Of a stretch of DNA of 64,000 nucleotides, positions 14,013 to 23,895 are shown one piece after another; positions within the stretch are counted from its first letter, which is position 1; every line of letters starts with the position of its first letter. Source of the stretch: Pelagihabitans pacificus (GTDB taxonomy: Bacteria > Bacteroidota > Bacteroidia > Flavobacteriales > Flavobacteriaceae); contig NZ_VIKU02000001.1 in NCBI RefSeq assembly GCF_009371985.2, positions 682,001-746,000 on the forward strand, given 5' to 3'. The position numbers and the translations under genes are program-made. The notes beneath the pieces were generated by a model. The model saw only the letters and a program-made list of their open reading frames with translations. It was not told where the DNA came from and did not search any database.

Positions 14013-14819
14013 TCAATACAAAACAGGATTTAGTGGGGTGTTGATGGTCTGGCCGATTTTTGCTCCGGGACACCAGGTTTCCCAATCGTTTTTCTGGCCA
14101 TCATTCGATGGTTCTTTAAGTTTCATCTCCTTATCCATGTAAATCACGGTCATGACTTTTCTCGTCCGATCCGTGGTATTTGCGCCTGCTCGGTGGTATA
14201 CCCAACCCGAGTGAAAACTGATTTCTCCGACTTCAAAAGGCTCGATGACATGCTTAAAATCGGTTACCTTTAAACGTTTTTCGATCAACATTTCACTATC
14301 GGCACCAATCGATAGTTCCCTACCTTCCATAATCCCGTGACTGCCGGCACTGAATTCAAGCGGCCCCATTTCCAAACCGGTTTCTTGCAACGGAATCCAA
14401 GCTGTGATTGTTTTATCGGTTTCTAAGGGCCAATAGTGCTGGTCTGCATGCCATGGTGTAATGCCACCACCGGCTTCTTTGAACAACGCTTGGTCATGAT
14501 ATAAACGGACACCCTCAACCTGCATTAGGTCCGATGCGATTTTGGCAATACGTTTGCTAAACACCAACTCCTTAATAGCACTGTCTTCTTTCCAAAGGTT
14601 GAAAAGTTGTAAAAAGGCCTTATCGTAAACAGAGCGTTCGGCTAGTGGAACAGTCTGTTGGTTCAATTCATCTACCTTCTTTGAAATGACCTGATTGAAA
14701 TGCTCCAAAGTGGTGCTGTCCAGTACATTTTTAAGTTTAATGTATCTGTTCTTATGGTAAAACTCGATTTGCTCGGCCGTTAGAACATATGGTTGGTCCA
14801 ATGCTATCGTGGTTGACAT
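14013..14819 (-). CDS. Phytanoyl-CoA dioxygenase (PhyH) family protein
   Basis: This is a 268-residue Fe(II)/2-oxoglutarate-dependent oxygenase of the PhyH family. The iron ligands are H124 and D126 in WHADQHYWP and H209 in HSGWVYHRAG, with an arginine (R218 or R220) placed to bind 2-oxoglutarate. The substrate is unknown; bacterial relatives hydroxylate small molecules, lipids or secondary metabolites. It is divergent from an AraC-type regulator across a 131-bp gap, the usual layout for an enzyme and its own activator. The two genes lie alone between tRNA-Leu and a partial tRNA-Leu copy and may be accessory. Confidence 0.9.
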   Translation of the reverse strand: MSTTIALDQPYVLTAEQIEFYHKNRYIKLKNVLDSTTLEHFNQVISKKVDELNQQTVPLAERSVYDKAFLQLFNLWKEDSAIKELVFSKRIAKIASDLMQVEGVRLYHDQALFKEAGGGITPWHADQHYWPLETDKTITAWIPLQETGLEMGPLEFSAGSHGIMEGRELSIGADSEMLIEKRLKVTDFKHVIEPFEVGEISFHSGWVYHRAGANTTDRTRKVMTVIYMDKEMKLKEPSNDGQKNDWETWCPGAKIGQTINTPLNPVLY

Positions 14820-14950: not shown

Positions 14951-15799
14951 TTGAAGCCTACACTAGAACAACTGAATTTAAATAACTCAGAACGATCCTT
15001 TCGGTTTTTCAAAAGGGAGGTCGACGCCTTTCGGCCCTTTTGGCATTACCATCCAGAACTGGAGGTGACCTTCATTTCAAAAGGAAATGGCACTCGGTTT
15101 GTAGGTAATTCAATTGAGCCATTTACAAATATGGACTTGGTCATGATTGGTAAAAATCTCCCACATCACTGGGTTGGCGTCCGTAGCGATACGGAAGAAA
15201 AACAGGAGGCGTTCGTATTTCAGTTTAACGATGATATGTTTGTAGGTTTCAAGGAATGTAGCGACTTTGAAATCTTGTTCGATTTATCAGGAAGAGGAAT
15301 ATTTTTTGAAAGTCCCTCAAACTCGCTGGTCCATCGTATTCTCAATTTTGAGTTTTTGAACGATGTGGAACAACTTTGCTCCTTGCTATTACTGATGAAG
15401 GACTTAAACAGTCATGGTCGCAAGAGGTTTTTGACCTCCGAATCCTACGCCCTTATGCATAATCAAAAATTGACCCGGCAAAAGTTCACAAAAGTCAACC
15501 ATCATATACTTGAAAATCTCGATCAAAAACTAACGGTGAACGAAATGGCCGAGATAACCCATATGGTACCACAGTCATTCTGTCGCTGGTTCAAGAAACA
15601 CTCAGGCCATTCTTTCGTGAATTTTTTGAATCTTTCCCGGATAGAACGGGCGTGTCAGCACTTGGTACTATCCTCAAATCCCATCCAGGAAATTGCTTTT
15701 AACTGTGGTTTTGAGACAATAAGTCATTTTAATCGAACGTTCAAAAAAATTAAGAAAATCAGTCCAAGAGAATATCGTAGTAAAAAATATTCCCGATAA
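14951..15799 (+). CDS. AraC family transcriptional regulator with N-terminal cupin domain
   Basis: The 282-residue protein has a cupin sensor (about residues 20-150, with the HYHPELEVTFI segment) and two C-terminal AraC-type HTH motifs (about 180-280; LTVNEMAEITHMVPQSFCRWFKK, split here as the first HTH, then IQEIAFNCGF in the second). The start codon is TTG at 14951: there is a stop in frame at 14921, no ATG lies between, and the next ATG would remove most of the cupin. It probably controls the divergent phyH-like gene, with a sugar or other small ligand bound in the cupin. Confidence 0.9.
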   Translation: MKPTLEQLNLNNSERSFRFFKREVDAFRPFWHYHPELEVTFISKGNGTRFVGNSIEPFTNMDLVMIGKNLPHHWVGVRSDTEEKQEAFVFQFNDDMFVGFKECSDFEILFDLSGRGIFFESPSNSLVHRILNFEFLNDVEQLCSLLLLMKDLNSHGRKRFLTSESYALMHNQKLTRQKFTKVNHHILENLDQKLTVNEMAEITHMVPQSFCRWFKKHSGHSFVNFLNLSRIERACQHLVLSSNPIQEIAFNCGFETISHFNRTFKKIKKISPREYRSKKYSR

Positions 15800-16183: not shown

Positions 16184-17293
16184 CTATTGATTTAACCATT
16201 GTTTGAATTCCGAAGCTCTATTCTTACTTATAATGATATCAAGTTCAGAATTTGGGTTTATTAAAATTTTGAGTTGGTTGTTACCATACTTAACGATTTT
16301 TTCAATTGCGGAAATTGCAATGATAAATTGTCTATTTGCCCTGAAAAAATGGTTTCCATCAAGATTGGAAATAAGCTCGTCAAGACTGGAATTTGAAGTT
16401 GATCTTTTGGAGTCTATACAAACTATGTAAGTAATAGTGTTTTCAGTATATATATATGCAATTTCCTTGGTAGGCACCGGCCTAAGTTCATTTCTATGAT
16501 AGGTAAGTATGCGGCTTTTTGAGGAACTATCATCCTCATTATTTTCAACCGATTGCCCTACTACTCTTTTTTGGTATGCATCTACCGCACTATTGAGTTT
16601 TGCCAGATTAACTACTTCGTTGGAAAGTTTCACATTCTTTTCCTCTAATCTATTTTCATACCTGCTACCGATTAGCCTCACTATAACAACGGAAGTAACT
16701 ATCATAACAAGCCCCATAACGATCAAAATGTTATAGAACTTATTTCTTAAATCATTTATTTGTGACATTACCAATTGGGTATTGGCATGTGCTGCAATAA
16801 TCCAATCAGAATTATCAACGGGATATAGATAAATTACCTCTGATTCTTGTGAAGTATCCTCAAAGTCCCGAATTCCCCCCACGGCCTGTTTATTCTGTAA
16901 TAAACTGTAAAAGTCTTTTGAGGTTAAATCGTCCGATACTGATGAAACAAAAGATTCTTCCGGACTTATGCTTTGCCCGACAACTTTAATATCCGGATGA
17001 CAAATGATTTTACCGGACCAGTCAAACATACTTACAAAACCGATGGTCTGGTTGGTACTACCTATGCTGTTTTGCAAGGAAATAATTGCGGTATCCTTTA
17101 AAACACCATTCTTTAACTGTTCTCCTAATAGGGAAGCTACTTCCCTAGCTTCTCTTTTACTGAATTCCAACTGCGTCTCCAATACCCTATCTACGCTGAA
17201 CTTCACAAAATAACGAACCGCAACGCTTGATATAATCAAAAAGATTATCGTAATACCTAAAAATGTCAAAAGATAGAGGCGATCTTTTCGCAT
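16184..17293 (-). CDS. Membrane-bound one-component regulator: Cache sensor + LytTR DNA-binding domain
   Basis: In order, the 369-residue protein has a membrane helix (about 8-28), an extracytoplasmic domain of about 150 residues that looks like a Cache-type sensor (GFVSMFDWSGKIICHP near 85-100 is typical), a second helix (about 188-208), a coiled-coil linker (212-245) and a C-terminal LytTR DNA-binding domain (265-368, with FFRANRQFII). It therefore reads an external signal and binds DNA while anchored in the membrane, without a kinase. The gene is divergent from the cytochrome c operon. Two operons nearby share tandem TTCCC boxes 20 bp apart, the two-turn spacing expected for a LytTR dimer, so this is their likely regulator (inference). 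Confidence 0.85.
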   Translation of the reverse strand: MRKDRLYLLTFLGITIIFLIISSVAVRYFVKFSVDRVLETQLEFSKREAREVASLLGEQLKNGVLKDTAIISLQNSIGSTNQTIGFVSMFDWSGKIICHPDIKVVGQSISPEESFVSSVSDDLTSKDFYSLLQNKQAVGGIRDFEDTSQESEVIYLYPVDNSDWIIAAHANTQLVMSQINDLRNKFYNILIVMGLVMIVTSVVIVRLIGSRYENRLEEKNVKLSNEVVNLAKLNSAVDAYQKRVVGQSVENNEDDSSSKSRILTYHRNELRPVPTKEIAYIYTENTITYIVCIDSKRSTSNSSLDELISNLDGNHFFRANRQFIIAISAIEKIVKYGNNQLKILINPNSELDIIISKNRASEFKQWLNQ

Positions 17294-17399: not shown

Positions 17400-17472
17400 T
17401 TCCCGATTAAACCCAAAATTTCCCTTTCACGGAGGTTAATAGGGTACCCTGGCCCTGAAATTATTCTATTTG
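17400..17472 (+). promoter_or_regulatory. Control region of redox operon 1: tandem TTCCC boxes plus TATTTG element
   Basis: TTCCC occurs at 17400-17404 and again at 17420-17424, where it is extended to TTCCCTTTCAC. AGGTT follows at 17433-17437 and a -7-like TATTTG at 17467-17472. The same elements with identical offsets lie upstream of operon 2 (20144-20216). The match is far better than the surrounding sequence and suggests shared activation, probably by the divergent LytTR protein. Confidence 0.7.
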
Positions 17473-17508
17473 ATTTCAATTAAAATTAATCTCTTAAAAA
17501 TAAAAACG

Positions 17509-17886
17509 ATGAAAAAAACAAGACTAGGCATAGCTTTTTTCTGCGCCCTTTGTATTTGGAGTTGTACAAATGATAGCGAAGCCGATTTAATTGAACAAGA
17601 ACAAATGGATGATGAGCCTACGGATGGCTCCGGGGTCACTTACGAAAACACAATTCGATCTATTATGCAAAGCAGCTGTGTTAACTGCCACGATGATCCC
17701 CCTAGAAACGGAGCCCCTTTCGCCCTGGTTACTTTCCAACAAGTTAGCTCCAGAGCCAATGGTATCCTGGAAGCTATGTCTCGCCAAAGCGGTGAGTCGG
17801 CGGCCATGCCTCCTGCAGGGAGACTCCCACAAAACACGATAGATCAAATTCAGCAATGGATCGATAACGGACTCCCTGAGAATTAA
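17509..17886 (+). CDS. Small c-type cytochrome lipoprotein
   Basis: The 125-residue protein has a lipoprotein signal with the acylated cysteine probably C19, an acidic linker, and one heme c site C57-V-N-C60-H61. A methionine in AAMPPAGRLP (M100) is well placed as the distal heme ligand. The C-terminal helix (IQQWIDNGLP) is typical of cytochrome c domains found at the end of planctomycete/Bacteroidetes redox proteins. It is the first gene of an operon with YceI, an OB-fold protein, a DUF5777 barrel and a heavy-metal-domain protein. I start at ATG 17509, which gives a proper signal peptide. Confidence 0.85.
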   Translation: MKKTRLGIAFFCALCIWSCTNDSEADLIEQEQMDDEPTDGSGVTYENTIRSIMQSSCVNCHDDPPRNGAPFALVTFQQVSSRANGILEAMSRQSGESAAMPPAGRLPQNTIDQIQQWIDNGLPEN

Positions 17887-17915
17887 AATATACTTCTAAC
17901 GATTAAACCTTAAAA

Positions 17916-18476
17916 ATGAAACAACGTAAAATCCCATTGGCGGCAATACTCATTCCCATTAGTGTATTTGCTTTCAATCTGAATGCCCAAAGCAAATATG
18001 TCGATAAAGCTGGCTACCTAAAATTTGAAGCCTCGGAAGCACTTTTCGAACCCGTCGAAGCGATAAACAAATCTGTAACCGCAGTACTAAATACCGATAC
18101 CGGTGAATTTGCCTCTTTGGCATTGATTGTAGGTTTTCGGTTCGAAAATTCGCTAATGGAAGAACATTTTAATGAAAACTACATAGAATCCGAAACGTAT
18201 CCTAAAGCCATATTCAAAGGGATGCTGATTGATTTTGACCTTTCAAGTTTGTCTAAAGACCCCATAGAAATTATGGTAGATGGGAAATTAGCATTGCATG
18301 GAAAAGAAAAAGAGGTCAAAACGATGGTCAGTATGCAAAAATTGAATGGCACCATAGTCATGAAGGGGGGCTTTACCGTCACCCCTTCAGACTTTGATAT
18401 TGAAATTCCATCCATTGTAAAAAACAAAATTGCCAAAGAGGTGCTTGTATCGTTGAACTTTAATCTTAAACCATGA
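17916..18476 (+). CDS. YceI family protein (operon 1)
   Basis: The 186-residue secreted protein has a signal peptide (about residues 1-25, ending in NLNAQ) and the YceI lipocalin-like fold. Other YceI proteins bind polyisoprenoids in a hydrophobic barrel, so a quinone or isoprenoid ligand is plausible but not shown. The segment LMEEHFNENYIESETYPKA is nearly the same in the second YceI protein at 22443 (MREHFNESYIESDIYPKA), which marks the two as paralogues. Its stop overlaps the next ATG by four bases (ATGA), so translation is coupled. Confidence 0.9.
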   Translation: MKQRKIPLAAILIPISVFAFNLNAQSKYVDKAGYLKFEASEALFEPVEAINKSVTAVLNTDTGEFASLALIVGFRFENSLMEEHFNENYIESETYPKAIFKGMLIDFDLSSLSKDPIEIMVDGKLALHGKEKEVKTMVSMQKLNGTIVMKGGFTVTPSDFDIEIPSIVKNKIAKEVLVSLNFNLKP

Positions 18477-18883
18477 GTAAAAAGAACAAGAGGTACTTCC
18501 TAATGGGTTTCGCCGCCTTGGTGATCTTAACAGCTTTTGTAATCTATGACAGGGTTTTTAATGCTGCACCTAGAGAGATAGCCAAGGAAACCACGGAATT
18601 TTCGATACCCGCTGACAATCTACAATTTCATTTTGCGGATAATCAAGCGAAGGCCACGGCGAAGTATTTAAACAGGGTGCTGGAAACCAGTGGGTCGGTC
18701 ACTGAATTAGGAACCAATACGATGGTCTTGGAAAATAGGGTTCAAGTCTATTTCTTGGACAATCCCGAACAGGATATTTCCCTGGGGGATACTATAAGCA
18801 TCAAAGGTAGATGTGTTGGCTTTGATGAGCTGTTACTCCTAGTCAAAATAGATCAAGCAACAACCATAAAACAAAATAAATGA
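18473..18883 (+). CDS. Membrane-anchored OB-fold (tRNA_anti-like) protein (operon 1)
   Basis: The 136-residue protein has one N-terminal membrane helix (about 9-28) and an extracytoplasmic OB-fold domain of the tRNA_anti-like type (AKYLNRVLETSGSVTEL, then DTISIKGRCVGFDEL). This fold family occurs in secreted Bacteroidetes proteins without known nucleic-acid roles. It overlaps its neighbours by ATGA on both sides. A lipoprotein version sits at the matching place in operon 2. I do not know its function. Confidence 0.75.
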   Translation: MSKKNKRYFLMGFAALVILTAFVIYDRVFNAAPREIAKETTEFSIPADNLQFHFADNQAKATAKYLNRVLETSGSVTELGTNTMVLENRVQVYFLDNPEQDISLGDTISIKGRCVGFDELLLLVKIDQATTIKQNK

Positions 18884-19734
18884 AAAATATTCTAGTAATA
18901 CTAATGCTCTATCTTACGGCAAGTACGCTTTGTGCCCAGGAAGATTTGCTTGCGGAATTTGATTCGGTCCCAGCTGACAACATCAAGAGTGCGGCATTCA
19001 AAGGTTTAAAAATCGTAAATTTTGAGTCTACTAAAATGGTCTCTAAAGGAGAGCTCTATTTTGTGACTTCACATCGGTTTGGTTCCGTGAAAGCCGGTAT
19101 TGAAGATTTTTTTGGTTTGGATCAAGCCGTGACCCGTTTGAACTTCATATACGGAATCTCTGACGGAATTAATATAGGTATTTCCAGAAGTTCTTTTCAA
19201 AAAATCTATGAGTCATCCTTAAAATTAAGATTGGTTCGCGAAAAAGCCGGTGGCTTTCCATTTACCATTGTTAGTTCAAACAACATATTGCTGAACACGG
19301 CATTGGATGATGAGATATTACCCGGGCTAAGCTTCGAGAATCGTCTGGGATATACGGCGCAGCTGTTAATTTCAAAAAAGTTCAATAAAAACTTCTCGCT
19401 TGAATTAATGCCCACTTTCTTCCATGACAACTTGGTGGCCTTGGATGAACAAGAAAATTCTCAATATGCTATCGGCTTTGGTGGAAGGCATAAGTTGACC
19501 AAGAGATTTTCAATCAACTTCGACTATGGCCTTCATCTGAACAGGGCATCGAACTCCCCATTTAAGAACCCCCTTTCCGTCGGGATAGATATTGAAACCG
19601 GAGGGCATGTTTTTCAGCTACATTTTACCAACGCACAGCCCATGAATACGAATGGTTTTCTAGGACAAGGAACAGGGGATTGGGGGGACGGTGATGTTTT
19701 CTTTGGCTTTAATCTTTCCAGGGTTTTCAACTAA
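18880..19734 (+). CDS. DUF5777 family outer-membrane beta-barrel protein (operon 1)
   Basis: The 284-residue protein has a signal peptide (about residues 1-19, ending in LCAQ) and then alternating strands typical of an outer-membrane barrel. The DUF5777 features are recognisable: a conserved start region with TFKxxKIVNFESTKM-like sequence, SHRFGSVKAGIEDFFGLDQA and LNFIYGISDGINIGISRS. Its paralogue is at 22981. It overlaps the OB-fold gene by ATGA. A barrel encoded with a cytochrome and YceI suggests a cross-membrane or surface redox assembly, which is inference. Confidence 0.85.
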   Translation: MKNILVILMLYLTASTLCAQEDLLAEFDSVPADNIKSAAFKGLKIVNFESTKMVSKGELYFVTSHRFGSVKAGIEDFFGLDQAVTRLNFIYGISDGINIGISRSSFQKIYESSLKLRLVREKAGGFPFTIVSSNNILLNTALDDEILPGLSFENRLGYTAQLLISKKFNKNFSLELMPTFFHDNLVALDEQENSQYAIGFGGRHKLTKRFSINFDYGLHLNRASNSPFKNPLSVGIDIETGGHVFQLHFTNAQPMNTNGFLGQGTGDWGDGDVFFGFNLSRVFN

Positions 19735-19744
19735 AACGACACTT

Positions 19745-20005
19745 ATGAAACAACAGATCGCAAGAATTCAAGTACAGAACAACTTTTGTGAAAGGTGTAA
19801 AAGTTCCATACAAACAAAGTTGACAAAAATAAGGGATGTCTCCAATGTTCGGCTTTATCCCAAAGAATCCCTGGTGGTATTTAATTTTTTCAGGGCCAAT
19901 GAGCTGTCCGATGTACTCAACGCCCTTACTGAGATGGGCTATCCGGAAGAAGGGGAAAGGATAAACCGGGATACGCTTCTAAGATCAAAATGGTGCATGT
20001 GTTAA
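19745..20005 (+). CDS. Small heavy-metal-associated (HMA-like) domain protein
   Basis: The 86-residue cytoplasmic-looking protein has an HMA-like fold: C15-E-R-C18 after the first strand, the helix SSIQTKLTKIRDVSNVRLYP, and the second helix ending in EMGYPEEGE. The CxxC would bind Cu(I) or another soft metal. The C-terminus adds a second cysteine pair, C-M-C. I start at ATG 19745; the longer frame from 19691 overlaps the barrel gene in another frame. As the last gene of operon 1 it may sense or deliver metal for the redox proteins of the two operons (inference). Confidence 0.7.
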   Translation: MKQQIARIQVQNNFCERCKSSIQTKLTKIRDVSNVRLYPKESLVVFNFFRANELSDVLNALTEMGYPEEGERINRDTLLRSKWCMC

Positions 20006-20143
20006 GTTGTACTTCGAAGTCAGTGCAACGGCGGGGATGAGATCATTTCGGGAAATCAACAAAGATAGTATGATACGACTTTAGCCCATGGTTCCTATAA
20101 CATCATTAATCAAATCAAAATGACACTTTACACCAAAAATACA

Positions 20144-20216
20144 TTCCCTTTTAAAGCTAAATATTCCCTTTCACCTAGGTTTTGTGTATAAACATCACCG
20201 CTCAAGGGTTTATTTG
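20144..20216 (+). promoter_or_regulatory. Control region of redox operon 2: tandem TTCCC boxes plus TATTTG element
   Basis: TTCCC is at 20144-20148 and 20164-20168 (20 bp apart), the second extended to TTCCCTTTCAC. AGGTT is at 20177-20181 and TATTTG at 20211-20216. All distances equal those upstream of operon 1. The remainder of the 250-bp gap (20006-20255) shows no other signal. Confidence 0.7.
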
Positions 20217-20255: not shown

Positions 20256-21794
20256 ATGAAAAAAGTATTTTTAGCAGCAATGGTCACTTTATTCGTAGTC
20301 GGTTGTAGCAAGGACGACGATAATGGATATGGCCCAAAACAAGATCAAGATCAAGAAGTAATCGATGACCCTGTGGTGGTTGAAAATTCGGTTAGATTGG
20401 CTTCTGATAACACCTTTGGAACGGTACTTACCAATGCGGAGGGGTTTACATTGTATTTCTTCGCTCCTGATAGTAAAGGAGATTCCAACTGCGTGGATGG
20501 TTGTTTGGCGAATTGGCCCGCTTTTAACCCAAGCGAACTAAGCTTGGACGAAGGTCTAAATGCGGATGATTTTAGTACGATAACCAGAACTGACGGCGCC
20601 GAACAAGTTGCCTACAAAGGATGGCCGTTGTACCTCTTTGCAAATGATACGGAGGCAGGACAAATAAATGGAGATGGCGCAGGAGATGTTTGGTTTGTTG
20701 CCAAGCCCGACTATTCAGTGATGTTTACAAGGTCTCAGCTTGTGGGAAGGGACGCCGATGGTAACGAGACCAACCTTACCAGCGCTTATGAAGCAGGGGA
20801 CGAGGAGACATTTTATATGACCGATGCCAATGGCAATACGCTCTATTCCTTTATCAATGATGAGAGCGGAACCAATAATTTTACCAACGAGGATTTTTCC
20901 AATAATGGGGCTTGGCCTATTTTTCAAACCGCACTGGAAAATGTACCTAGTATATTGAATGCAGATGATTTTGGGACCATATCGGTTTTTGGTGAAGCAC
21001 AATTAACCTATAAAGGGTGGCCACTTTATACCTTTGGCGGTGACGAGAATCGAGGGGACAATTTTGGGGTCGGATTCCCGGTGGCCGGCATATGGCCCAT
21101 TTTAAACCTGGATACCGAAAGTGCCCCTGCTCCAGAGGTTGACACATCCGCTGTTGAAAAAACATTTACCGTTTCAAATGTTGGGGCCTCTGCGTATCTC
21201 TTTGATTTTACAAGTTTGGAAAACCCGGAGCTTGAATTGACCAGGGGCAGTACTTATGAATTTTCGGTTGACACGCCCGGACACCCATTTATCATTAAAT
21301 CCGTGCAAGGTACAGGAACGGATAACACCTATGATGACGGTGTGACCAATAATGGTGCGGCAACGGGAACAATAGTGTTTACGGTACCCGAAGATGCTCC
21401 CGATGTTTTATTTTACATCTGCGAGTTTCATGGTTCGATGACCGGCAGAATTCGAATAGTGGACGCGACGGAGACCACTTCTTTTGACGTTGGCAATAAT
21501 GGCGCTACCTCCTATGTTTTCGATGGAAAAGGTTTTGCCGGTGATGAAAATCCAAATTTTAACTTAAGAAGAGGAAGAACATATGAATTCGTTGTCAATA
21601 CACCAGGGCATCCTTTTATCATTAAAGCTGTACAGGGCACGGGTACGGGCGACGCCGTTAATGACGGGGTTACAAATAATGGCGTGGCAACAGGAACAAT
21701 AAGCTTTACCGTTCCCGCCGACGCTCCTGATACGCTTTTTTATATTTGCGAATTTCATGGCAGTATGACCGGTACTTTTACAATCAGCGATTGA
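20256..21794 (+). CDS. Surface lipoprotein with Yx(FWY)xxD repeats and two C-terminal cupredoxin domains
   Basis: The 512-residue protein has a lipoprotein signal (lipidated C17) followed by SKDDDNG, an acidic stretch resembling the export signal that sends lipoproteins to the cell surface in Bacteroidetes. Residues 45-290 hold repeats of the secreted Yx(FWY)xxD type (PF03640-like), with four motifs: YFFAPD, YLFAND, YSFIND and YTFGGD. Residues 305-512 are two tandem cupredoxin domains. Type-1 copper ligands are complete in both: H343 with C389-x2-H392-x2-M395, and H452 with C498-x2-H501-x2-M504. This suggests an electron carrier or copper protein at the cell surface. It is the first gene of operon 2. 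Confidence 0.85.
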   Translation: MKKVFLAAMVTLFVVGCSKDDDNGYGPKQDQDQEVIDDPVVVENSVRLASDNTFGTVLTNAEGFTLYFFAPDSKGDSNCVDGCLANWPAFNPSELSLDEGLNADDFSTITRTDGAEQVAYKGWPLYLFANDTEAGQINGDGAGDVWFVAKPDYSVMFTRSQLVGRDADGNETNLTSAYEAGDEETFYMTDANGNTLYSFINDESGTNNFTNEDFSNNGAWPIFQTALENVPSILNADDFGTISVFGEAQLTYKGWPLYTFGGDENRGDNFGVGFPVAGIWPILNLDTESAPAPEVDTSAVEKTFTVSNVGASAYLFDFTSLENPELELTRGSTYEFSVDTPGHPFIIKSVQGTGTDNTYDDGVTNNGAATGTIVFTVPEDAPDVLFYICEFHGSMTGRIRIVDATETTSFDVGNNGATSYVFDGKGFAGDENPNFNLRRGRTYEFVVNTPGHPFIIKAVQGTGTGDAVNDGVTNNGVATGTISFTVPADAPDTLFYICEFHGSMTGTFTISD

Positions 21795-21812: not shown

Positions 21813-21961
21813 AATGAGGCTGTCTCTATAGTCGAGAAAAGGCGTCATTGCGAACATAGTGAGGTAATCTGTTTGTCGCCTGTCAAAAAACGTACAGATT
21901 GCTTCCCCGGATAGTTATGGGGTCGTAATGCAAAAAGCGAGACTTAGTAGACAGCCTCATT
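21813..21961. repeat. Hairpin-forming intergenic repeat with 13-bp terminal inverted repeats (MITE-like)
   Basis: The element begins AATGAGGCTGTCT and ends with the exact reverse complement AGACAGCCTCATT, 149 bp in all. Inside, CATTGCGA...GTAATCTGT is matched by an inverted, imperfect arm ACAGATTGC...CGTAATG, so the whole element can form a long hairpin. The inner sequence resembles the CATTGCGAGGAACGAAGCAATC type repeats scattered through many Bacteroidetes genomes. It encodes nothing and lies between the first and second genes of operon 2. Confidence 0.8.
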
Positions 21962-22030
21962 ATTCAAACATTTGGGCTTCAAAAAGTCCCGTATAAACAT
22001 TAGTTTTAACTACTTTTTAAAGGTGGGAAT

Positions 22031-22441
22031 ATGAGAAGGAGTACCAGATTTTCCTATTTAACGGTTTTTATACTTGTATTTCTATGTCTTTTAGGCTGTA
22101 ATCACCGTTTAAATGGGGATCTAACAAACGTGCCGGCAAGTAAGGTATATACGGTGGAGCAATTGATTTCCGAATTCCAATCAAACAAGAAAGGCGATAC
22201 CGAGCTCGTAATTGCAGTAGAAGGAATTGTGCATGAAATCAACAATGTCAATGACAGGCACACCATTTTGCTAGAGGGGGAAACTGCCAGCGAAACCTAT
22301 GTGATATGCGATATGAATACCAACCAATTAAATACTACGGAAGCGGTAAAAAGTGGAGATTTGATTTTAGTAAAAGGTCTTTTAAAAGGTTTTCTAAAAG
22401 ACGTTATTATGTTGAATTGTGTAGTGATTAAGACCGAATAG
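22031..22441 (+). CDS. OB-fold (tRNA_anti-like) lipoprotein (operon 2)
   Basis: The 136-residue protein has a lipoprotein signal with C23 in FLCLLGC, then an OB-fold of the tRNA_anti-like type (DTELVIAVEGIVHEINNVND; GDLILVKGLLKGF). It has the same length and fold as the operon 1 protein at 18473, but it is lipid-anchored instead of helix-anchored. The stop is one base before the next ATG. Its promoter is unclear, because a hairpin repeat separates it from the cupredoxin gene, so it may be read through from there. Confidence 0.75.
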   Translation: MRRSTRFSYLTVFILVFLCLLGCNHRLNGDLTNVPASKVYTVEQLISEFQSNKKGDTELVIAVEGIVHEINNVNDRHTILLEGETASETYVICDMNTNQLNTTEAVKSGDLILVKGLLKGFLKDVIMLNCVVIKTE

Positions 22442-22442
22442 A

Positions 22443-22991
22443 ATGATAAGAATGTTAGCTGTTTTTTTAATAGCACTTTTAAGCACCTCGGAAATCGATA
22501 CTGATGGGAAGGTAATTGCCCGGCAGGGCAAGGTGTCTTTCTTCTCACACACATCGGTAGAAGACATAAAAGCGGAGAACAATCAGGTGCTAAGTGTTAT
22601 TGACCTAAAAGACGGAAAAATTGCTGTTAGTATGCTTATGAGTGCCTTCATTTTTGAAAAAGCGTTGATGAGGGAGCACTTTAATGAAAGCTATATAGAG
22701 TCGGACATTTACCCCAAAGCTATCTTTGAAGGAGTTTTAGTTGATTTTGACCCCGCCGTTCAGGGAGAGCAAACCCGTATGGCAAAAGGAGTTTTTACTA
22801 TGCACGGGGTATCAAAATCCCTTGAAATTAAAGTCAAAATAGAAAACAATACGAGTGGTTACGTCGTTTCGGGTAGTTTTGAAACATATGTAAAAGATTA
22901 TGATATTAATATTCCTCCCTTGCTCGCCGGAAATATTGCCAAAAGCATTTCAGTAGATTTTAGATTTGAATACGAGCCCTATGAAGACTAA
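22443..22991 (+). CDS. YceI family protein (operon 2)
   Basis: The 182-residue YceI paralogue of the protein at 17916 has a short signal peptide (about residues 1-16) and the conserved MREHFNESYIESDIYPKA segment, then GVFTMHGVSKSLEIKVKI, a YceI hallmark. A bound isoprenoid or quinone is possible from family knowledge. It overlaps the following DUF5777 gene by 11 bases. Confidence 0.88.
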   Translation: MIRMLAVFLIALLSTSEIDTDGKVIARQGKVSFFSHTSVEDIKAENNQVLSVIDLKDGKIAVSMLMSAFIFEKALMREHFNESYIESDIYPKAIFEGVLVDFDPAVQGEQTRMAKGVFTMHGVSKSLEIKVKIENNTSGYVVSGSFETYVKDYDINIPPLLAGNIAKSISVDFRFEYEPYED

Positions 22992-23895
22992 AATAATTTT
23001 TACGTTGGCATTCGCATTGCTGACCACGGTGCATTACTCATTTTCGCAAGACCTGCTGGGAATTTTAGAATCTGAACAGCAGAATGATGTTCCGTTTATC
23101 CCCGCAACATTTAAAATGACGCGTATAGCCGTCGGACACTCCACTGAAGTTCGGGGCAAGGGGATTTTGGACCTTTTTGTTGCGAATCGATTTTGGAATA
23201 CCCCGGCCGACAGAACCCAAAGCTTTGTCGCGGATAGAATGAGCAGCCGAATAGCACTTGAATACGGTATATCCGACAGACTTACTTTTGGAACTGGCGC
23301 AACCACTTTTGATGGACTTTTTGACGCGCATCTTAAATATCGAATTGTGCAGCATACCGATAAAAAAGGATTTCCATTTTCGATTACCCTTTTCCAAAAC
23401 ATGAGTTATAACAGTAGTCCCTTTGGTAACCAAGACATAGCCGACGACTTTTCGGACAGAACAGCTTTTACGTCACAAATTTTACTTTCAAAAAAGGTGA
23501 CAAAAGACTTTTCGTTCCAAGTTTCGCCTACATACATAAATAAAAGCCTAGGTTTATCAGAAAATGATCCTAAAAATTTCTTAGCTATTGGTTTGGGAGC
23601 TAGATATAGGTTGGGGTATCATTTAAGTCTGGTATCTGAATATTATCATACATTCAACCCAATAAAATCTTTCACTACTTATGATACTTTTGCCATTGGC
23701 ACCAACTGGGAATTAGGTGATATCATGTTGCAATTTATGTTGACCAATGCCGTGAATATGGTAGAGGATGCATTTATAGTTCAAACTAGGAATAACTTTA
23801 ATTTTCGCAATCCCAATTTAAATTTTGGTTTTAACGCCACCTATGTCTTCCATTTTAAAAATAGGCTTAAAACAAAAAATAAGGACAAATTGTAG
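22981..23895 (+). CDS. DUF5777 family outer-membrane beta-barrel protein (operon 2)
   Basis: The 304-residue paralogue of the barrel at 18880 has a signal peptide ending in YSFSQ. ATG 22981 is chosen because it gives a clean signal peptide; the frame opens five codons earlier. Family features are present: VANRFWNTPADRTQSF, IALEYGISDRLTFGTG and FQNMSYNSSPFG. It closes operon 2. The order barrel-last, with OB-fold and YceI before it, parallels operon 1 except that OB and YceI are swapped. Confidence 0.85.
   Translation: MKTKIIFTLAFALLTTVHYSFSQDLLGILESEQQNDVPFIPATFKMTRIAVGHSTEVRGKGILDLFVANRFWNTPADRTQSFVADRMSSRIALEYGISDRLTFGTGATTFDGLFDAHLKYRIVQHTDKKGFPFSITLFQNMSYNSSPFGNQDIADDFSDRTAFTSQILLSKKVTKDFSFQVSPTYINKSLGLSENDPKNFLAIGLGARYRLGYHLSLVSEYYHTFNPIKSFTTYDTFAIGTNWELGDIMLQFMLTNAVNMVEDAFIVQTRNNFNFRNPNLNFGFNATYVFHFKNRLKTKNKDKL

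Follow-up and report, generated by a model that had tools for sequence, protein, structure and literature searches.

A direct-repeat promoter element at two envelope operons of Pelagihabitans pacificus and its candidate transmembrane LytTR regulator

Results

A shared control element precedes two operons

The window analyzed here, a 64,000-nucleotide stretch of the Pelagihabitans pacificus genome (family Flavobacteriaceae), carries two operons for predicted envelope proteins, each preceded by the same short control element, with the gene of a LytTR regulator lying divergently beside operon 1. Direct reading places TTCCC at 17400-17404 and again at 17420-17424, TTTCAC at 17425-17430, AGGTT at 17433-17437, and TATTTG at 17467-17472 upstream of operon 1; the corresponding boxes upstream of operon 2 are TTCCC at 20144-20148 and 20164-20168, TTTCAC at 20169-20174, AGGTT at 20177-20181, and TATTTG at 20211-20216. 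The original prediction had described the same boxes at identical offsets before both operons, and each offset it gave was reproduced by this reading. The element, the regulator, and the operon genes are as follows (window coordinates).

17400..17410, + strand: operon 1 box A, TTCCCGATTAA, a degenerate copy
17420..17430, + strand: operon 1 box B, TTCCCTTTCAC
17433..17437, + strand: operon 1 AGGTT, varying between genomes; three of five columns invariant among close relatives
17465..17472, + strand: putative operon 1 −7 promoter element, TCTATTTG, compare TAnnTTTG; fixed offset from box B
20144..20154, + strand: operon 2 box A, TTCCCTTTTAA
20164..20174, + strand: operon 2 box B, TTCCCTTTCAC, identical in its letters to operon 1 box B
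20177..20181, + strand: operon 2 AGGTT; five of five columns invariant at operon 2 among close relatives
20209..20216, + strand: putative operon 2 −7 promoter element, TTTATTTG; fixed offset from box B
16184..17293, − strand: LytTR regulator, 369 amino acids, predicted transmembrane one-component Cache-like/LytTR protein, divergent to operon 1
17509..17886, + strand: operon 1 gene 1, small c-type cytochrome lipoprotein (Cytochrome_CBB3, E 9e-5, below the Pfam cut-off)
17916..18476, + strand: operon 1 YceI protein (PF04264)
18473..18883, + strand: operon 1 tRNA_anti-like OB-fold protein (PF12869)
18880..19734, + strand: operon 1 DUF5777 beta-barrel (PF19089, E 3e-88)
19745..20005, + strand: operon 1 heavy-metal-associated (HMA-like) protein (PF00403, E 6e-5, just below the cut-off)
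20256..21794, + strand: operon 2 gene 1, Lipoprotein_15 (SCO0930-like) surface lipoprotein (PF03640, E 5e-41, three stretches)
22031..22441, + strand: operon 2 tRNA_anti-like OB-fold protein (PF12869)
22443..22991, + strand: operon 2 YceI protein (PF04264)
22981..23895, + strand: operon 2 DUF5777 beta-barrel (PF19089)

The element is confined to these two places in the source genome (4,560,827 bases), by pattern searches and by a sequence model alike; random occurrence across this genome was not seen. The exact short pattern matched twice, at the two operon promoters, and the AGGTT-containing form with up to three mismatches found the same two places only, against none for a reversed-pattern control. 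The model, trained exclusively on sites from other genomes, scored the two sites at E 4.4e-12 and 2.0e-7, with the next best place in the genome at E 0.018.

Among the window and the five nearest relatives found, the boxes are retained while the flanks are altered. At operon 1 (six sequences, ungapped), 8 of 11 box A columns and 10 of 11 box B columns are invariant, as are 13 of the 40 upstream positions; at operon 2 (five sequences), the corresponding counts are 11 of 11, 9 of 11, and 2 of 40.

The repeat unit and its promoter phasing

In the alignments, the conserved unit is a direct repeat, TTCCnTTTYAA...TTCCnTTTCAC, of about 11 bp per box with a period of 20 (sometimes 21) bp. The TTCCC repeat of the original prediction is thus present as part of a longer unit, whereas AGGTT, listed there among the shared boxes, varies between genomes, is not conserved in the family-wide alignment, and was rejected as a general core. 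The consensus of 48 aligned sites reads ATTCCCTTTTAAnGCCnATTTTTCCCTTTCACAnAnTTTT ... TTnTTTTG.

In 35 of 53 sites, the distance from the first base of box B to TTTG is 48 or 49 bp, so that the boxes keep a fixed phase relative to the promoter. TATTTG is probably the end of the flavobacterial −7 promoter element: The published sigma-A promoter has a −7 box, TAnnTTTG, at positions −12 to −5 (PMC9723704). The sites studied here share a TTTG at a fixed place behind the boxes but mostly do not keep the TA, the aligned consensus being TTnTTTTG. By arithmetic in the frame of that promoter, box B would span about −57 to −47 and box A about −77 to −67 (PMC9723704).

A LytTR regulator predicted to be membrane-bound

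That a LytTR regulator lies divergently beside operon 1 was confirmed, with the correction that the protein is probably membrane-bound and carries its own sensor domain. Its LytTR domain is C-terminal (PF04397, residues 270-367, E 2e-16, 60.3 bits against a cut-off of 22.6), and a Cache_3-Cache_2 match falls below the cut-off (E 0.025). Pfam and NCBIfam found no receiver domain, and by that measure the protein is not a response regulator.

The AlphaFold2 model of all 369 residues (pLDDT 80.6, pTM 0.48) comprises a long helix (2-61), a Cache-like domain, a second long helix (172-250), and a LytTR fold (261-368). Foldseek matched the LytTR part to 3d6w (E 5.7e-9, TMt 0.88) and to DNA-bound AgrA (3bs1, TMt 0.73), and the middle part weakly to Cache sensor domains. 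The predicted order is therefore membrane helix, Cache-like sensor, membrane helix, coil, and LytTR, with a single chain holding the sensor, the membrane helices, and the DNA-binding domain, as expected of a one-component transmembrane regulator. Beside the gene no separate transmembrane inhibitor of the kind found in LytTR regulatory systems (LRS) was seen; the modelled helices sit in the regulator itself, and within the window its gene is flanked by the target operon and by open reading frames (ORFs) not found in the other loci. Since the source genome encodes 22 LytTR domains, specificity must come from the box sequence.

Conservation around regulator orthologs

Regulator orthologs (E ≤ 1e-30) occur in 38 of 299 family genomes. 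We fetched 38 regions around orthologs in 37 other genomes which, with the window, make up 39 loci; OB-fold, YceI, and DUF5777 genes adjoin the regulator in most of the ortholog loci. An early iterative motif run drifted to 194 sites, mostly weak, and the motif was then restricted to sites of at least 24 bits. There are 55 such sites in 34 of the 39 loci (the same loci also trained the motif), spaced by 20 bp in 44 cases and 21 bp in 11, and 53 of the 55 read as operon 1 does when the loci are turned to put the LytTR gene on the minus strand. The 55 sites collapsed to 53, and the training alignment, without the two window sites and three out-of-register or doubtful ones, holds 48.

Spacing itself was considered as a strict marker of regulator clades and set aside: It is clustered but not exclusive, with five changes on the tree compared with 8.5 for shuffles. 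G018, a genome of the same genus with a distant LytTR ortholog (50% identity), has 21-bp spacing at the promoter of its own LytTR gene and 20-bp spacing at an unlinked cytochrome-YceI-OB-DUF5777 operon (L083, L116). Upstream of the regulator in four loci (L068, L069, L073, and L075), at least three tandem boxes follow one another with a period of about 20 bp.

Held-out loci (L127-L132 and L134-L141) carried a site of at least 20 bits upstream of the regulator gene in 12 of 14 cases, although several are closely related to each other and there are fewer than 12 independent cases; L133, on the same contig as L065, was not counted. A second site precedes the Lipoprotein_15 gene in eight of the nine held-out loci with a Lipoprotein_15 match, and one held-out locus (L139) comes from a different family within the order. 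Conservation upstream of orthologous operons, on which the original prediction depended, is thus observed across genera and at both operons.

Shared ancestry alone could also leave similar promoters, and the two operons do contain paralogous genes: The YceI pair is 35% and the DUF5777 pair 28% identical, which upholds the paralogy claimed for the operons except at the OB-fold pair, only weakly alike by BLAST. A duplicated promoter retaining no current function would not be expected to keep the boxes and the −7 element while spacers and flanks diverge, as they do both in close relatives and family-wide. Moreover, L131 yielded no Lipoprotein_15 match and also lacks the second site. We regard such a relic as extremely improbable.

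The site follows the regulator in genome scans

As a probe of related genomes, the literal pattern was useful only when applied strictly. Its AGGTT form gave 29 matches in 22 of the 299 family genomes at three mismatches, near chance and barely above the 25 of the reversed control, and was dropped as a family-wide test in favor of the model; with at most two mismatches it gave eight matches in seven genomes, all of which carry the regulator. The model draws on sequence only, covers 79 positions, and was trained on the 48 non-window sites; its E-values are rough, and for the large scans the filters were set more strictly, at the cost of weak matches.

Across the family, all 57 model matches at E ≤ 3.5e-5 fall in genomes with a regulator ortholog. 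Such a match is present in 32 of 38 genomes with the ortholog and in none of 261 without it, a statistic that is partly circular, the training sites having been drawn from regulator loci. Nine of the 57 matches are non-training sites outside the fetched regulator regions. Because of these nine, the window sites, the held-out loci, and two held-out genomes of one genus absent from training (G367 and G491), the association is not wholly circular. Within a sample of 246 genomes from the order, only four have a match at E ≤ 1e-6 (G000, G176, G367, and G491), each with the regulator. On this comparative evidence the site appears to follow the regulator. Three matches in genomes where no ortholog was found were judged chance: G181 (E 4.9e-5) and G067 (E 6.7e-5), with no module gene found nearby, and G415 (E 2.2e-6), with no LytTR ortholog at E 1e-40, a threshold that a more diverged ortholog could escape.

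That the element might track the target genes and not the regulator received no support. Among genomes with DUF5777, a site at E ≤ 3.5e-5 is present in 32 of 37 that carry the regulator and in none of 109 that lack it. One DUF5777 locus was also taken from each of 20 of these 109 genomes (18 of the 20 with DUF5777 61-70% identical); a site of at least 20 bits was found in none, the best reaching 17.5 bits. Most of the 20 loci are ordered OB-fold, DUF5777, cytochrome, and YceI was found in three, and because gene order differs their promoters need not be orthologous, which makes the control weaker.

Besides the circularity and the differing control loci, several observations weigh against assigning the element to this regulator. 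At a loose threshold (E ≤ 0.05), 253 of the 299 family genomes have a match. Five of the 38 family genomes with the regulator have no site at E ≤ 1e-4 (G010, G032, G186, G224, and G227), with an imperfect copy in G032 and a weak one in G227 (E 8.7e-4), and held-out loci L140 and L141 are without a site. In the order sample, four of eight regulator-bearing genomes (G032, G314, G447, and G506) have no match at E ≤ 5e-4. Three of the nine unlinked sites from the family scan lack a clear target.

Co-occurrence is, moreover, correlation: A different transcription factor, co-inherited with the LytTR gene and the operons, could bind the element without the pattern changing, and the 22 LytTR domains of the source genome offer other candidates. 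Near operon 1 there is also an ORF at 14951-15799 whose product, judging from its sequence, we take to be AraC-like. It was rejected as the regulator, since no match to it or to ORF 14013-14819 turned up in the sequence fetched for the 38 ortholog loci or for L127-L141. Against any other factor stand also the absence of strong sites from DUF5777 genomes that lack this LytTR gene (0 of 109 genomes, 0 of 20 loci) and the restriction of all matches at E ≤ 3.5e-5, unlinked ones included, to genomes that have it. We consider binding by another factor improbable.

Unlinked sites and the regulon

The nine unlinked sites lie in G102 (two), G179 (three, one of which shares a contig with the regulator at a distance of 22 kb), G288, G018, G195, and G059. 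Two precede cytochrome c-YceI-OB-DUF5777 operons; four others precede genes for two lipoproteins, one with a lamin-tail domain and one with Spondin_N, for a protein bearing a type IX secretion tail, and for an extracytoplasmic function (ECF) sigma factor. The last of these sites (G288, L114:4266-4339, E 2e-9) lies at the start of the sigma factor gene, with the first ATG inside the model match, so that the true start is probably further on; it suggests a cascade through the ECF sigma factor in this genome. In G367, an unlinked site lies about 90 bp before a cytochrome c-YceI-OB-DUF5777 operon. Strong unlinked sites in G491 (L162, E 1.9e-10) and G367 (L163, E 1.4e-9) also precede a gene for a probably secreted protein of 207-209 amino acids.

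At other regulator loci, the first gene after the site encodes a lamin-tail lipoprotein in L066, L067, L068, L074, L086, and L094 and a CHRD protein in L087. Lamin-tail or CHRD domains were found in 7 of 10 first-gene proteins scanned; of the other three, one combined a type IX secretion tail with a lamin-tail match below the cut-off, one had NHL repeats, and one gave no match. Because these targets join Lipoprotein_15, cytochrome c, YceI, and DUF5777, the regulon is best described as one of the envelope; from its cytochrome c, YceI, and HMA-like content one might guess at a role in surface redox or metal chemistry.

Within the source genome, operon 1 runs cytochrome c-like, YceI, OB-fold, DUF5777, HMA-like, and operon 2 Lipoprotein_15, OB-fold, YceI, DUF5777. 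DUF5777 was found in 146 of the 299 family genomes and in none of 14 control genomes, and the source genome holds a third match besides 18880-19734 and 22981-23895. Between the Lipoprotein_15 gene and the next gene lies a stretch of 154 bases (21815-21968) with inverted ends, GAGGCTGTCTC ... GACAGCCTC; with its terminal-repeat-like ends it resembles a small mobile element, yet it is single copy in the source genome.

Discussion

The classical LytTR consensus is [TA][AC][CA]GTTN[AG][TG]. As had been predicted, the boxes depart from it: By eye, CCCTTTYAA/CCCTTTCAC has T for G, and the ends deviate. LytTR sites that depart from the classical consensus, or that share none, have been reported (PMC6193735, PMC4847170). 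What they share is layout, a pair of 9-11 nt direct repeats separated by 11-13 nt, for a period of about 20-24 (PMC4847170); in LRS the gap between repeats is usually 12 bp but can be 11 or 13, and the pair sits just upstream of −35, most often by 10 bp (PMC6193735). The earlier proposal that two boxes two helical turns apart fit a LytTR arrangement agrees with both descriptions (PMC4847170, PMC6193735). Counted on a 9-nt core, the period of 20 (44 of 55 sites) or 21 (11 of 55) gives the expected LytTR operator spacing, whereas counting the whole 11-nt box leaves a spacer of only 9-10 nt, compared with the 11-13 nt of the published definition (PMC4847170).

The closest parallels are the Streptococcus mutans LRS, HdrRM and BrsRM, in which a membrane protein likewise controls the activity of a LytTR output (PMC6193735). 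Their direct repeats, for example ACCTCTTAG-N12-ACCACTTAA and GCAACTTAG-N11-GCAACTTGA, have a period of 20-21 just upstream of −35, and those of the hdrRM operon also diverge from the classical consensus (PMC6193735). They differ in that the inhibitor is a separate membrane protein of a two-gene operon (PMC6193735), whereas here sensor, helices, and LytTR domain are predicted in one protein, and in that the box here is TTCCnTTTYAA and the targets are envelope proteins. Escherichia coli YpdB also pairs a LytTR domain with a tandem direct repeat, GGCATTTCAT, of period 21 with TTTCA in both boxes, but it is a two-component response regulator (PMC4847170), and a receiver domain was not found in the present protein. 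The combination of DNA-binding domain and membrane helices in one chain is that of transmembrane transcription regulators, which are reported to be enriched in Bacteroidota and for which membrane-spanning LytTR proteins have been noted in Caulobacter (PMC10269533); a target site is proposed here for a LytTR member, while none is given in the available parts of that paper (PMC10269533).

We consider it probable that the transmembrane LytTR regulator encoded divergently to operon 1 uses this element as its operator, through which it would activate both envelope operons. Position, conservation, fixed promoter phasing, co-occurrence with the regulator, and domain architecture form the observed basis, from which we infer binding, activation, dimeric occupancy, and a signal. 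Since a period of 20-21 and a place upstream of the −33 region fit the printed LytTR layout, the regulator may be expected to bind both promoters and most likely to activate them. Two LytTR domains would bind TTCCnTTTYAA and TTCCnTTTCAC on one helix face, separated by two turns. From this place, where the end of box B adjoins the upstream side of the −33 region, they would recruit the housekeeping sigma factor to a weak −7 element (TnnnTTTG) or position it there correctly. The Cache-like domain would sense a periplasmic signal and set the activity of the regulator, and the output would be coordinated expression of the envelope proteins of both operons and, in other species, of unlinked surface-protein genes as well.

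The element also lies in the divergent region shared with the regulator gene and could serve both that gene and operon 1; the same LytTR protein might then repress the operons and release them on signal, or mainly regulate itself. The placement of box B upstream of −33 at a fixed distance from −7 is typical of an activator, like that of LRS repeats upstream of −35 (PMC6193735). In addition, the element shares the orientation of the operons, and further copies stand before operon 2 and before unlinked operons without an adjoining regulator gene. Repression or self-regulation is for these reasons unlikely, if less so than the involvement of another factor.

Beyond activation as such, a more speculative picture is conceivable, though we would not favor it: The regulator, still fixed in the inner membrane, might activate several scattered operons directly by pulling their repeats to the membrane, building a previously undescribed outer-membrane redox or metal-linked apparatus cued by a small periplasmic Cache ligand. 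Its parts would be the DUF5777 barrel, cytochrome c, YceI, OB-fold, and HMA-like proteins, along with Lipoprotein_15, lamin-tail, and CHRD or spondin surface proteins.

Layout and LytTR domain are already known; as far as the literature was searched, the regulator, the box sequence, and the regulon are new. That literature, from which most subscription journals fall outside, yielded no description of a membrane-bound flavobacterial LytTR family of this sort and no mention of DUF5777, and searches for LytTR with YceI, CHRD, or DUF5777 likewise gave nothing useful. For this family of membrane-bound LytTR proteins in flavobacteria, the analysis supplies a candidate operator sequence, regulator, and regulon. 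The co-occurrence of site and regulator makes binding easy to test, and by tying DUF5777 to cytochrome c, YceI, and surface lipoproteins, the putative regulon offers a handle on DUF5777 function.

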